The notes beneath the pieces were generated by a model. It was not told where the DNA came from. It did no database searches and saw only the letters and a program-made list of their open reading frames with translations. A stretch of DNA of 64,000 nucleotides from Chloroflexota bacterium (GTDB lineage: Bacteria; Chloroflexota; Anaerolineae; Promineifilales; Promineifilaceae): the NCBI GenBank assembly GCA_018004935.1, contig JAGNBF010000018.1, positions 1 through 64,000 of the forward strand. Reading direction: 5' to 3'. This document shows, in pieces, positions 42,913 to 47,561 of the stretch. The translations under genes were made by a program, and so were the position numbers. How positions within the stretch are numbered: the first letter of the stretch is position 1; each line of letters starts with the position of its first letter.

Positions 42913-43806
42913 TCAATGTAACCCTTTTTTCTTCCAATAACGCATAATGCCATCTACTGACATATATAAAGGGTTGGCGGCTACGTATCGGGTAAAGTCG
43001 GATTCAGAAATGCCGACTGCGGCCGCACGTTCCCAGTTCCATTGTTCATACAATGAAACCAGATTATCCCGGTCTACCCCATGGAGCATTTGATCGTGCA
43101 CAAAGAGCGCGGCCGCGTCCAGCAACTCACGAAACTCATCCAAATGGGTATGGACATCATCTACTGGCCCAGCATGGGTAGGATAAAGCCGTTGAAAATT
43201 GGCCCCCTTTAACCGGGCAAGCGTCTCCTGCCATACTTCCCAGTTAAATTCTGGGGGTGGGGCGGGCAAATCTCTCAAGGGACTCCCAGGCAGACAAATC
43301 CCTGCCGCATCACCGGTAAAAGCGACATCCTCTAGCTGATAGGTGTGATGATGATTCGCATGACCGGGAGTATCGAGGGCCGTAAAGGTCAAACCCGCCG
43401 CCTGAATTTTGTCTCCATCGTAGAGAGCGGTAACTTGTGTCGCGGGTGAGGCTAAAAAAGCACCCCATAATTCATCCATGCGGTCGCCATAAATGCGGGT
43501 GGCGCTGGCCAGCAATTTGGAAGGATCAATCAGATGGGGTGCGCCCAGGTGATGCACATAGATTTGTGTTCCTTGTTGGGCCCACCAGCCTGCGGCTCCG
43601 GCATGGTCCAGGTGTATGTGGGTTACAAGCAAATGTTTGATATCTTGCGGAACATAGCCAAACTCGGCTAACCGTGCGTGTAATGTTTTGAGCGTCGAGC
43701 CGGGACCTGTTTCAACCAGTACTGGCCCGCCTGGCCCCACCACCAGATAGGCCACGGTGACATTGGGTTTGCCTTGATAATGTAAGTCTAGGGCATGAAT
43801 CTGCAT
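42913..43806 (-). CDS. MBL-fold metallo-hydrolase
   Basis: A 297-residue hydrolase of the metallo-beta-lactamase fold. The metal motif HIHLDHAGAAGWW lies near residue 75 and a second His is in LDTPGHANHHHTY near 165. The metal-bridging Asp is in VAFTGDAAGI near 180, and a third His is in YPTHAGPVDDVHTHL near 230. A helical C-terminal domain follows. Members hydrolyse lactones, thioesters or phosphodiesters, and the substrate is not determined. The ATG at 43806 has GAGGTT before it and is preferred to an upstream in-frame start. Confidence 0.92.
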   Translation of the reverse strand: MQIHALDLHYQGKPNVTVAYLVVGPGGPVLVETGPGSTLKTLHARLAEFGYVPQDIKHLLVTHIHLDHAGAAGWWAQQGTQIYVHHLGAPHLIDPSKLLASATRIYGDRMDELWGAFLASPATQVTALYDGDKIQAAGLTFTALDTPGHANHHHTYQLEDVAFTGDAAGICLPGSPLRDLPAPPPEFNWEVWQETLARLKGANFQRLYPTHAGPVDDVHTHLDEFRELLDAAALFVHDQMLHGVDRDNLVSLYEQWNWERAAAVGISESDFTRYVAANPLYMSVDGIMRYWKKKGLH

Positions 43807-43934
43807 AACAACCTCATTGGAGGGTAGCACAAGAGCCAAAACATTAAATAGTTACCCGGTCTCTGGCGCTACGTCTATCGTTGCTAAAAAGTATCCCTGA
43901 AAATGGGTCAAACTTTCCTCCGCTAAGCCTGTTG

Positions 43935-44024: not shown

Positions 44025-45212
44025 TCACCAGTCGGACTTACTGAGTAAATACCAAATCTGACCTTGCCCCCTTTTACCGCGGCCGCGCCAATACACCTCT
44101 TCCCCTTTTTGTTTTGTCACAGCTTCGGCCCCCTGAGCAAAAAAACGTTTATGGCGTGGGCCGTTCCCCGCTGTCCCTTGTTGCCGCAGGTCTGCCAGCC
44201 GCCGATTAAGTCGTTTTTGGTGCCGTTTGGGTTGGGGCTGATGAGGCCCTGTGTAATCATTGGGAAGTTGCCAGGCCAGATAGGTCGTGTGGGCCTGCCC
44301 TTGCTCTCCATTGTAATCAGTAAAGGTGAACATACCCGACCCCCGTTGCCACGCGCACTCTTCTTGTGTTTCTGGGGTAGCGATTTCCCCCAGGGCGAAG
44401 TTAGTCTGCGGCCGCACACCGACCCGTTTTTCATAACTCCGTTGGGTTTGGTGGCTTACCCCTGAGAGGTGGCTCAGAGTCGCACGGGCAATAGGCTGAT
44501 GGGGATGGTTGCGGCCGCTGTGAAAGCTGGCATAAAAATGGGCCTTCACTTCTCCAATGGGCCGGGTGAGTGTCAGCAGGGGTAAAATGATGGGGTAGCC
44601 GGAGAGGTGTGTAAGACCAAGCGCGGCCGCGACCTTCACCACCGAGCGGAGCCATAGCCGGTCTCCTTGCTTTTGCCAAAATAGCCCTTCTCCCTGGCCT
44701 AACAAAATCCGTAATTGCCGCCAGCCACAAAGCCGCCATACCGAAGTCGCATCGCATAGAGATCGCCGTACCTGCGCCATCTCTAGCCAGCCACGGCCCG
44801 CTTCATCCAAATGTCGTAATAAAAACCAGATGCGGCTTTCGGCCACACGATTGTGGTTAAGAAGAGCCAATGCCAGATCTGGGGAGAGGGTGAGTGTTGC
44901 GGGAGGGGTAGAGGCAGGGGGAAACTCTGCGGCCGCGGTCCCCATAAAAAAGGCATTCTCAACAAACACCGGTTTGCCCGCCTGCGGCTGTTGCCCCAAT
45001 CGGGAAAGAGACTCACTGTGCCAACCCAGATGCGTTGGCCAGATCGTCATGGGTGGGCTTGTTTTTCCCAATTGATCCTTTATCGGCGACTCAACTGGTT
45101 CACGGTAAATGTGTACTTGTTGCCGTAACGCCAACAACTTCTCTTGAGCCGCCAATAACGCCTGCGATGGCTGTGTATCCACCTTGCACCACACCCGGCA
45201 AACACCATAACC
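44025..45212 (-). CDS. Putative DNA-binding protein, replication-initiator-like
   Basis: About 395 residues; the family is not recognised. The middle has ALALLNHNRVAESRIWFLLR, a winged-helix-like DEAGRGWLEMAQVRRSLCDA and GWRQLRILLGQGEGLFW. Then RATLSHLSGVSHQTQRSYEK, VGVRPQ looks like a second helix-turn-helix. The C-terminus is basic and Gln-rich. Two winged helices in a row, divergent from an origin-like intergenic region, are the layout of many plasmid Rep proteins; that reading is an inference. The start is uncertain: a TTG at 45245 and ATG at 45212 are possible, without a good ribosome site. It carries five GCGGCCGC words, so it is not a very recent arrival. Confidence 0.6.
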   Translation of the reverse strand, partial: GYGVCRVWCKVDTQPSQALLAAQEKLLALRQQVHIYREPVESPIKDQLGKTSPPMTIWPTHLGWHSESLSRLGQQPQAGKPVFVENAFFMGTAAAEFPPASTPPATLTLSPDLALALLNHNRVAESRIWFLLRHLDEAGRGWLEMAQVRRSLCDATSVWRLCGWRQLRILLGQGEGLFWQKQGDRLWLRSVVKVAAALGLTHLSGYPIILPLLTLTRPIGEVKAHFYASFHSGRNHPHQPIARATLSHLSGVSHQTQRSYEKRVGVRPQTNFALGEIATPETQEECAWQRGSGMFTFTDYNGEQGQAHTTYLAWQLPNDYTGPHQPQPKRHQKRLNRRLADLRQQGTAGNGPRHKRFFAQGAEAVTKQKGEEVYWRGRGKRGQGQIWYLLSKSDW

Positions 45213-45275
45213 CATAAGCCAAAGGAGTGAGGCAACATAAAACAAGCGTTACGCTGAGAACAGCCTACGCTTGCA

Positions 45276-45304
45276 TTGACACCGATCTGGCCGTGTGTTA
45301 TGCT
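45276..45304 (+). promoter_or_regulatory. Strong sigma-70-like promoter, divergent from the rep-like gene
   Basis: TTGACA (45276-45281) and TATGCT (45299-45304) have exactly 17 bases between them. The only thing it can transcribe before a terminator is a region of about 145 bases with no convincing gene. Confidence 0.7.
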
Positions 45305-45310
45305 TTTTGC

Positions 45311-45455
45311 AACTGTGAGGCTTCCGGGAGGAATGCAAAAATCCCCCTCCCCAAAGAAAGGGGCATACACTTTACCTTATTTGCAGACCGGTAGTGTGAT
45401 GGGAAGCTTTGTTTATACAAAGGCCGGGCGCGCGTACGCCTGGCCTTTTCGTTTC
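45311..45455 (+). ncRNA. Candidate small RNA between promoter and terminator
   Basis: The interval lies between a near-consensus promoter and an intrinsic terminator. The transcript could fold: TTTTTGCA (near 45304-45311) with TGCAAAAA (near 45333-45340), CCCCTCCCC with AGGGG, and the terminator stem. The only frame through it has 71 codons and no ribosome site. It lies antisense to any leader of the rep-like gene, as copy-number RNAs do in plasmids. It matches no known RNA that I can recall. Confidence 0.4.
45420..45450 (+). terminator. Intrinsic terminator
   Basis: AAGGCCGGGCG (45420-45430) pairs with CGCCTGGCCTT (45437-45447), one mismatch, followed by TTTTCGTTTCTT. Confidence 0.75.
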
Positions 45456-45490
45456 TTGGGCATGGTTCAGTTCAGCTTTATAAGCGGTTA

Positions 45491-45550
45491 AGTAATCGTC
45501 CCAAAATAGCCTGGGTGGCGCGGTCAAGAAACCGGCTACAACCAATCACT
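45491..45550. repeat. Dispersed element B, partial copy
   Basis: AATCGTCCCAAAATAGCCTG and GGTGGCGCGGTCAAGAAACC are followed by GGCTACAACC. It is more diverged than other copies. Confidence 0.75.
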
Positions 45551-45631
45551 AAATTATTTGCGCACGATTACAAAGTACTGTTTGCCGACGTTTGCACCAC
45601 GCCGTTTCTTGGGTATTCCCCGCTGAGGTAC

Positions 45632-45661
45632 ACAGTAAAAAGAAGAACTTCTTTTTACTGT
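45632..45661. repeat. 30-bp inverted repeat near the origin-like region
   Basis: ACAGTAAAAAGAAG (45632-45645), AA, then CTTCTTTTTACTGT (45648-45661). It could be a regulator site or the terminator of an opposing transcript. Confidence 0.75.
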
Positions 45662-45689
45662 CCGTTTATCTCATGGTGATGATATACCA

Positions 45690-45955
45690 GAAACCTGAAC
45701 CGTATTAACAGACATTTGTTGCTATCTATCCCCTAAACCTGACTGATAACAAGAACAAATGTATTAAAAACGCAATCAAGGCGATCCTAACATAATTGAT
45801 TGCCCTTGTCAATCAATCTATAGGCTATAGATTGGCGAAAACATAAGAGTTTATGCCAAATATCCACAAGCTATCCACAGGTAGTGGGTATTTGTCCACA
45901 GCCAGGGCAGGAGAAACAATATAGTTATCCCCAATACTGGACAGTTATCCCTGAA
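45690..45955. other. Candidate replication origin with phased DnaA-box-like sites
   Basis: Five near-matches to the DnaA box TTATNCACA lie in one orientation: ATATCCACA (45860), CTATCCACA (45871), TTGTCCACA (45892), TTATCCCCA (45925) and TTATCCCTG (45945). Start-to-start distances are 11, 21, 33 and 20 bases, close to whole helical turns. To the left is an AT-rich stretch (45690-45850) with inverted repeats ACATTTGTT/AACAAATGT and CAATCTATA-GGC-TATAGATTG (45814-45834). No dnaA, dnaN or rpmH gene is near, so a plasmid-type or secondary origin is more likely than a standard oriC. Confidence 0.55.
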
Positions 45956-46082
45956 TTTGTGAAAATGGGGGAAATTAGTTGCTCTTTCTCCTCTGGTTTG
46001 GTTATATCCAATAGTCGTTTACGCATAAGACCCTGGCTTTTACTGACAACCGGGTGGGAGAAATCACTTCAGGACACAGACA

Positions 46083-46961
46083 ATGATGGAAAATATAAAA
46101 CTCGAATTTTTTAGCAAAGCTGATTGGAGCCGTCTGGGGCTGGTTGTCCCCCCTTTTAGTATCGAAGCTGATCCTCGCTTCATGTACATTTCGGTAGATA
46201 CACGACGTGCCCTGTCAAAGGTGAGTTTCATGGTGGAGTCAGGGCAGGGGGCATCTATCATTGTCGGTGAAGTGGGCACAGGTAAAACAACGTTGGCCAC
46301 CTGGTTTCATAGCCGTTACCAACGTCGCCCGGACTTTGTGGCTGCCCGTGTGGATGAACCGCCTAAACGAAGTGGTTTGCTTCTGCTCCGCCGTATCGCC
46401 GCCGAATTGGGCATCCGCACCCGTCGGGCTACGGAAGATCAGTTGAATGAGTTTCGTGCCTTCCTCATCAAACAAAGTGAAAAGGGTATCATTCCCCTCA
46501 TTATTATTGACGAAGCCCATGAATTAAGTGCGGAGCAATTTGTGGAATTACGGCGTCTTTTGAACTTTCGGGATCCCGGCGGCCGCAAAGCTTATCAGCT
46601 TGTGCTCCTGGGTCGCCCAGAGCTGGATATTAACCTGCGTGAAGTCCCCGATTTTAATGACCGGGTAGCAACGCGTTCCTCTCTGGACCCACTTACCCCG
46701 GAAGATACCAAATCTTTAATTGAGTACCGCCTTTTGGCCGCGGGGCGAGATGTCAAACAACCACAACTATTCAATGATGATGCAGTACTCCCTATTTGGC
46801 GGGAAACGCGCGGTTATCCCCGGAGTATTTGCCTGTTGTGTCTGCATCTGTGCTTGCATTTGTTAGATCAGAATGCTCCCCAGGTAGATGAAGCGTTTGT
46901 GGCCTGGTTTCTGGAGAAAGAACATAGCTACCGGCAACTTTTGGGTGATAAGCGAGCTTAG
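46083..46961 (+). CDS. ExeA/TniB-like AAA ATPase
   Basis: A 292-residue ATPase. FSIEADPRFMYISVDTRRAL near the N-terminus is the usual ExeA/TniB opening. Walker A GEVGTGKTT is at 62-70 and Walker B IIIDEAHEL at 141-149. A sensor-1-like VLLGRPELDINL and FNDRVATRSSLDPLTPEDT follow, then an Arg-rich lid. Family members act in type II secretion (ExeA), Tn7-like transposition (TnsC/TniB) or plasmid maintenance. No transposase or secretin gene is near. It starts 130 bases after the DnaA-box-like cluster and is followed by a basic protein gene on the same strand. Confidence 0.9.
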   Translation: MMENIKLEFFSKADWSRLGLVVPPFSIEADPRFMYISVDTRRALSKVSFMVESGQGASIIVGEVGTGKTTLATWFHSRYQRRPDFVAARVDEPPKRSGLLLLRRIAAELGIRTRRATEDQLNEFRAFLIKQSEKGIIPLIIIDEAHELSAEQFVELRRLLNFRDPGGRKAYQLVLLGRPELDINLREVPDFNDRVATRSSLDPLTPEDTKSLIEYRLLAAGRDVKQPQLFNDDAVLPIWRETRGYPRSICLLCLHLCLHLLDQNAPQVDEAFVAWFLEKEHSYRQLLGDKRA

Positions 46962-47012
46962 GGACGCTTTCACCGATAGAACTGGGTTTTCCGGTTTCAG
47001 CGGGTTGACACT

Positions 47013-47561
47013 ATGAGTAAACAACCGCAACGAGAAGAAAGCACCCTAACGGCGTTGTTGCGTGAAAAACCCAAACGCGGCCGCCCCCGTCATGCTGTCA
47101 GTCGCCAGAGTGTGTATGTGGCGCTGACGGTAGAGCAAAAAGAACTGGTTAAACAATTAGCGGAAACTCTGAATGAGGGGTTAGACCGGTCTGATATACC
47201 GGATATGGCGGTGATGCTTTTGGCGGTGCGTTTAGAAGCCTTGCGCCGGGCAGTGTCTGATCGGGATCGAGAGATGCCGGAGGGGATTACGGTTCTAGAT
47301 TCTCTTTATTTGTTATGGGATGTGCCGTTGCCGTTGCCTTCTGAAGCGTCCTGGACATCTATTCGTCTTTCGCCACAACAGATTATTCAGTTGGGGCGAT
47401 CCCAGGGTTTGCTCCATGCTTTATTTAATGCGAATCGGAGTGAAGTGTTTAGTTTGGGGCTTGGTTTATTGAAGCTTTTGCTGGAGAGCGAAGCCTTGCC
47501 CTTGGCGGATGTTCACACCCTGAATGACTTTGAAACCAAAATGACGATGATTTATTTGTGA
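47013..47561 (+). CDS. Basic protein of unknown function, AT-hook-like start
   Basis: 182 residues. The N-terminus has EKPKRGRPRHAVSRQSVYVA, in which KRGRPRH resembles an AT-hook. A helical region, LTVEQKELVKQLAETLNEGL, and a hydrophobic C-terminal half with LGRSQGLLHALFNANRSEVF follow. A ribbon-helix-helix fold in the first 70 residues is possible. It starts 51 bases after the ATPase gene and is probably co-transcribed. A DNA-binding partner for the ATPase is a reasonable inference. No family recognised. Confidence 0.65.
   Translation: MSKQPQREESTLTALLREKPKRGRPRHAVSRQSVYVALTVEQKELVKQLAETLNEGLDRSDIPDMAVMLLAVRLEALRRAVSDRDREMPEGITVLDSLYLLWDVPLPLPSEASWTSIRLSPQQIIQLGRSQGLLHALFNANRSEVFSLGLGLLKLLLESEALPLADVHTLNDFETKMTMIYL

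Follow-up and report, generated by a model that had tools for sequence, protein, structure and literature searches.

A plasmid-like replication-control locus with a previously undescribed antisense RNA family, probably resident at a replication origin in a Chloroflexota family

The main chromosomes of bacteria are taken to initiate replication, near-universally, through DnaA at oriC. Here we describe a locus in the first 64,000 nucleotides (the window) of a contig of a Chloroflexota bacterium (GCA_018004935.1, JAGNBF010000018.1) which comprises three genes (A, B and C), an antisense RNA and a unique palindrome. On balance we consider it to be a plasmid-derived replication-control module that has long been fixed at the origin of a core-gene-bearing replicon in this family. 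The elements of such modules include CopG, a small ribbon-helix-helix protein. On plasmid pMV158 the repressor CopG and the antisense RNAII jointly control one rep gene, RepB (PMC4485353). Chromosome 2 of Vibrio is an essential replicon with its own origin, ori2, and a plasmid-type initiator, RctB, whose central domains are RepE-like (PMC6090056). In repABC replicons, which are chromids or megaplasmids, an antisense counter-transcribed RNA (ctRNA) controls the initiator in linkage with partition genes (PMC6090056), and the rep locus of the cyanobacterial plasmid pSYSA, encoding CyRepA1, carries asRNA1, an antisense RNA of about 150 nt with three hairpins (PMC9978351). That a plasmid origin can drive a chromosome has precedents both in RctB-driven Vibrio chromosome 2 (PMC6090056) and in Synechococcus elongatus, where an integrated plasmid origin can take over the chromosome upon deletion of dnaA (PMC7198777).

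The locus in the window recalls each of these systems and matches none of them. With pMV158 it would share a repressor and an antisense RNA acting on one rep gene, a precedent for dual control. It differs in that its putative Rep is a predicted RepE-like tandem winged-helix protein, that C is a predicted tandem ribbon-helix-helix protein encoded divergently together with an AAA+ ATPase, and that the locus lies at a skew minimum among core genes. As in plasmid replicons controlled by antisense RNAs, the RNA gene overlaps the leader of the putative rep gene. The F-plasmid initiator RepE (Rep_3) is the closest solved structure to the predicted model of A, with two winged-helix domains in the same order; unlike RepE, A has no Pfam match, and an antisense RNA stands in place of iteron control. 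Vibrio chromosome 2 has iterons and a checkpoint site on chromosome 1, whereas this locus combines a unique palindrome with an antisense RNA. The repABC replicons differ from the A locus in initiator, RNA and gene order alike, and CyRepA1, in contrast to A, has helicase and primase domains. Finally, the S. elongatus takeover is a laboratory suppressor, whereas the Chloroflexota locus is fixed across genera with dnaA kept.

The window is part of an 88-kb contig (C112) of a 7.98-Mb genome in 229 contigs. Checking its open reading frames bore out the three genes of the initial annotation, their strands and the 51 bases between B and C (Table 1). The family concerned has Ardenticatenaceae and Promineifilum as named members, and A matches also occur in other metagenome-assembled genomes of Anaerolineae. 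In 20 fetched relatives the order is the same: an MBL-fold gene, A divergent from B, then C. The linkage to the MBL-fold gene adds to what had been annotated. With a cut-off of E <= 1e-60, B was detected in 35 of the 52 genomes of the family, single-copy (also in the window genome) and about 70-84% identical; only diverged versions of B occur in the next family of the same order. Identity is lower for C (49-61% among relatives) and for A (41-53% among the best matches). Outside the family A is rare, with distant matches in 3 genomes of other families when 396 genomes of the class were searched. The three genes thus form a real, conserved and long-resident locus in this Chloroflexota family.

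Table 1. Features of the A-B-C locus, with coordinates in the window
Feature	Coordinates	Strand	Basis or remark
MBL-fold hydrolase gene	42913..43839	-	neighbour downstream of A; adjoins A in 19/20 fetched relatives and in the window
Gene A, tandem winged-helix protein, RepE-like putative initiator	44025..45245	-	AlphaFold (AF2) model, Foldseek, VIA
Antisense RNA promoter, TTGACA-N17-TATGCT	45276..45304	+	such a promoter in 19/19 intergenic regions tested
Structured antisense RNA (closing stem, three hairpins, intrinsic terminator)	45309..45452	+	covariance model R1, E 1.1e-16
Putative A promoter, TTGACA-N17-TAGGAT	45784..45812	-	read from window sequence
Palindrome AATCTATAGGCTATAGATT, putative operator or origin element	45815..45833	.	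abuts -35 box of A promoter
Four DnaA-box-like 9-mers, one mismatch each	45860..45933	+	specific to window genome
Gene B, AAA+ ATPase of TniB/TnsC/ExeA type	46083..46961	+	Walker A and B intact
Gene C, tandem ribbon-helix-helix DNA-binding protein, putative CopG-like repressor	47013..47561	+	AF2, Foldseek

The divergent short RNA that had been proposed between the genes is real, lies on the plus strand and is conserved. Its complementarity to the leader of the A mRNA had not been recognized before. All 19 intergenic regions tested share the same arrangement on the plus strand, a TTGACA-N17-TATgcT promoter and behind it a closed RNA of three hairpins with a terminator. The structure, specified by hand, is supported by the alignment: 91% of cells pair, and compensatory change is seen at 18 pairs versus 7.0 in shuffles. 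The covariance model R1 found 62 matches below about E 1e-6 in 52 genomes. Of these matches, 60 lie immediately upstream of an A-family gene and antisense to it; of the remaining two, one (G040:C843) sits at the B locus of its genome. Among the RNAs of A paralogues a core containing CCCCCTCCCCAAT.AAGGGGC is mostly constant while closing stems and third-hairpin loops vary, and at several paralogues the RNA begins at the A start codon. The third hairpin is GUUGGCGGCAC in most orthologous loci; the window copy deviates. This is the pattern of copy-number antisense RNAs with loop-determined specificity, and by analogy with these the RNA probably limits A expression. Searches of Rfam with the window RNA yielded sub-threshold, chance-like matches only, and the family is previously undescribed. 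In genus g2 a near-perfect inverted repeat, AAGACCCTAAGGGTTT..AAACCCTTAGGGTCTT, lies right after the RNA terminator (L084:9141-9187, same place in L083 and L085).

The palindrome, likewise absent from the initial annotation, is a single-copy site. Each of 23 genomes has exactly one occurrence of the pattern AATCTATA-N3-TATAGATT, in every case at the A-B locus and not at the loci of A paralogues, and the same search with the backward pattern as control gave zero matches. A TTGACA-N17-TARACT promoter points toward A in 18 of 20 relatives, and in 17 of these the palindrome stands 2 bp from the -35 box of an A-directed TTGACA-N17-TAGACT promoter. A candidate for its ligand is the product of gene C, which had been described as a basic AT-hook-like protein. 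The protein does start with a basic RGRP stretch, but structure prediction (mean predicted local distance difference test, pLDDT, 86.6) makes it mainly a tandem ribbon-helix-helix protein, with chains of the F-plasmid relaxosome as its top Foldseek matches. Judged from this model, C probably binds the palindrome as a CopG-like repressor.

Gene A had been annotated as a double winged-helix-like protein, and two such domains are backed by its AlphaFold model (pLDDT 80.6, from 35 sequences). Its start codon is uncertain, the first in frame being TTG at 45245. Profile searches found no family for A: there was no Pfam (E up to 1), NCBIfam or PHROGs match, no match to the Rep_3 profile, and nothing in a sequence search of the PDB with an A profile. 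The six top Foldseek matches of the model were all RepE54, the F-plasmid initiator (E 0.06-0.14), and VIA-align superimposed A on RepE54 with Z up to 6.8 (residues 114-334, 163 residues, root-mean-square deviation 4.4). Entries that covered both winged helices of A in the VIA list were only RepE54 or Rep-DNA entries; other folds in that list cover the first winged helix alone and were rejected. The predicted model therefore suggests a RepE-like initiator fold, at scores too low to establish it.

Further support for a plasmid origin of A comes from its relatives, which were found by an alignment-based scan of genome contigs. A has many paralogues, with 10 matches in the window genome and 14 in G007, and ParA is encoded within 6 kb of 12 of 17 full-length paralogues, in some loci together with ParB (both Pfam-confirmed). 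A distant homologue (hhalign 98.7%, 238 columns; L267, L269) resides beside an actin-like segregation gene on the 37,206-bp contig G293:C6, whose perfect 2019-bp end overlap identifies it as a circular element of 35,187 bp. No match was found in PLSDB (tblastn) for A or this homologue, and IMG/VR gave none. The ParA-linked paralogues and the homologue on a circular contig suggest, independently of the fold, that A is a plasmid initiator. The initial annotation had held that homologues scattered without the ATPase would speak against a replicon. Such a scatter exists in part, for the A paralogues, which lack B and C; since an antisense RNA of the same type, and usually ParA as well, accompanies these paralogues, it strengthens the replicon interpretation rather than weakening it. 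In a tree the A proteins of the locus were not recovered as monophyletic, while locus and paralogue labels cluster (3 changes versus 12.7 when shuffled). The window A groups with the C108 paralogue of its own genome (84/89), and A and its RNA may thus have been exchanged in the window genome. Separately, G007, which has no B locus, carries numerous A-RNA-ParA cassettes; the contigs that bear them are 44-400 kb long, and one of these cassettes shares its contig with dnaA. Another contig, G000:C62 (109 kb, L064), combines a diverged A paralogue with two ParB matches and a second dnaN-like gene, and is possibly a large plasmid or phage-plasmid.

Where on the replicon does the locus lie? With the sequence oriented so that B reads forward, the covered stretches of five sampled genomes have a negative GC skew on the MBL side, which gives way to a positive one on the C side, and the same signs were found on further contigs in 12 of 13 cases for the MBL side and 10 of 13 for the C side. 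In all cases where both sides were measurable, third-position skew of plus- and minus-strand genes shifts the same way, and this speaks against gene orientation as the sole cause. On the 1.004-Mb contig of G033 the largest skew rise among 453 tested positions falls at 870 kb, and the locus at about 870-874 kb; this contig has a single skew minimum (870 kb) and a single maximum (about 430 kb). Core genes are found in the vicinity. G003 and G005 have a 16S rRNA gene no more than 25 kb from the locus, and in G028 one lies about 1.2 kb beyond B; in G033, tRNA-Thr, -Tyr and -Trp genes and nusG are at a distance of about 40 kb, and four genomes have a ParB gene (350-380 amino acids) at 4-22 kb. We infer that the locus probably marks the replication origin of a core-gene-bearing replicon, either the main chromosome or a second chromosome of about 1 Mb. 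Five genomes (G033, G026, G003, G029 and G001) encode two ParB types each, of 356-380 amino acids on the locus contig and about 300-350 on other contigs.

Taken together, the proposed mechanism would be as follows. The mRNA of A, the putative RepE-like initiator, would start from the promoter upstream of it with a leader of about 530 nt. The strong RNA gene on the opposite strand within this leader would produce an antisense RNA that pairs with the leader and limits synthesis of A, as do CopA/RNAI-type RNAs, and C would bind the palindrome and repress the A promoter in the manner of CopG. B, which had been annotated as an ExeA/TniB-type ATPase and indeed matches AAA_22 (PF13401, E 8e-24) and, weakly in sequence, TnsC, would probably cooperate with A at the origin, in loading or remodelling. 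It is a putative initiation partner or helicase-loader-like ATPase, and this is the weakest step of the scheme.

The DnaA-like boxes were part of the reasoning by which the initial annotation saw the control region of a plasmid adopted by the chromosome. Four boxes within 74 bp were reached in none of 1000 local shuffles, so the cluster is not random in the window; as it is absent from the relatives tested, both at the locus, where the skew switches, and in short stretches beside dnaA, we treat it as a feature of the window genome and not as a defining element. The boxes possibly aid Rep-type initiation there, and as a conserved origin signal they were rejected. The idea of a resident plasmid-like control region is thus carried by other evidence, namely the RepE-like predicted fold, the antisense RNA, the partition-linked paralogues, conservation in the family and the GC-skew minimum.

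Could the locus instead be an ancient plasmid remnant near a conventional DnaA-dependent oriC, with A, the RNA and B-C put to some other use, such as gene regulation or incompatibility towards A-type plasmids? We think this unlikely. It would account for a dnaA that is present and intact in 11 of 11 genomes tested, for the DnaA-like boxes in the A-B intergenic region of the window genome and for rRNA operons near the locus in some genomes, as at ordinary origins. Yet the other relatives lack such boxes, dnaA of G033 (at 670 kb) is 200 kb away from the skew switch with no skew change at its own position, B is conserved far above the expectation for a remnant, and hardly any variation occurs in the palindrome. 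Two narrower alternatives address single parts of the locus. B and C might be left over from a transposon of the TniB/TnsC type or from a secretion locus, with A unrelated to them, as AAA_22, TniB, XrtA-associated ATPase and TnsC are the best families of B. This is scarcely credible: as had been stated already, no transposase or secretion gene adjoins B in the window neighbourhood, nor does TniQ, and B is single-copy, in the same position and divergent from A across about 20 genera. The short RNA might also be a free-standing trans-acting regulator, 6S-like for instance, overlapping the A leader by coincidence. A strong promoter and a terminator would suit such a role, and on G000:C25 (L062:10571-12205) four tandem copies of the RNA type, with different loops, lie upstream of one A paralogue. 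With no Rfam match, with nearly all R1 matches antisense to and upstream of A genes, and with stems and loops that change along with the A paralogue, we judge this very improbable.

Within the preferred explanation, a plasmid-derived module at an origin, the identity of the replicon allows two forms. It seems possible, and we put it forward tentatively, that the main chromosome handed initiation to a captured plasmid system consisting of a RepE-like initiator, antisense RNA, unique palindrome and AAA+ partner in about 20 genera, with dnaA kept. Somewhat more doubtful is the special case of a second chromosome (chromid) of roughly 0.8-1 Mb that has its origin at the locus, a counterpart of RctB-driven Vibrio chromosome 2, with DnaA and the other ParB serving a larger replicon; its probability overlaps with that of the preferred explanation. 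The one minimum and one maximum of skew on the 1.004-Mb contig, as in a circular replicon, are consistent with a chromid, as are a skew maximum about 400 kb from the locus in G026, one ParB type on each large contig of G033 (the second on the 4-Mb contig C1) and the little skew of C1 in nine samples. No circular end overlap was seen on the 1-Mb contig, however, which bears dnaA, tRNAs and nusG while rRNA and dnaN are on C1, and in G003, G005 and G028 a 16S rRNA gene is near the locus.

Several observations weigh against an origin driven by A. Besides the retention of dnaA, the likeness of A to RepE is one of predicted fold, with modest scores, and no conserved clustered direct repeats (iterons) were found within 2.5 kb of A, although degenerate iterons could escape such a search. 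For the window contig, which is short, calculation with small or medium window sizes puts the steepest skew change 5-7 kb from the locus, and in G003 the top skew-change positions do not include the locus. Genera g9 and g22 do not have the locus (A and B are both absent in 5 of 5 g22 genomes) though their genomes are equally complete; it is therefore not indispensable across the whole family. If the plasmid-derived module does fire an essential replicon, this would be a natural, long-lived capture of an origin, with a plasmid-type initiator and an antisense-RNA brake, in about 20 genera. It would provide an origin hypothesis for this uncultured Chloroflexota group. The locus also adds a new Rep-like family, a new family of antisense RNAs and a DNA site present once per genome.

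A different, iterated palindrome was correctly reported to be carried by the three genes. GCGGCCGC occurs 112 times in the window versus 1.7 expected, and is present in A, B and C. It is the local form of an iterated palindrome with a CGGCCG core and a lineage-specific outer base: GCGGCCGC reaches 1.75/kb in the window genome, ACGGCCGT 1.2-2.5/kb in many sister genera and TCGGCCGA about 1.4/kb in others (L082-L099, L072, L079). In this it resembles the cyanobacterial HIP1.

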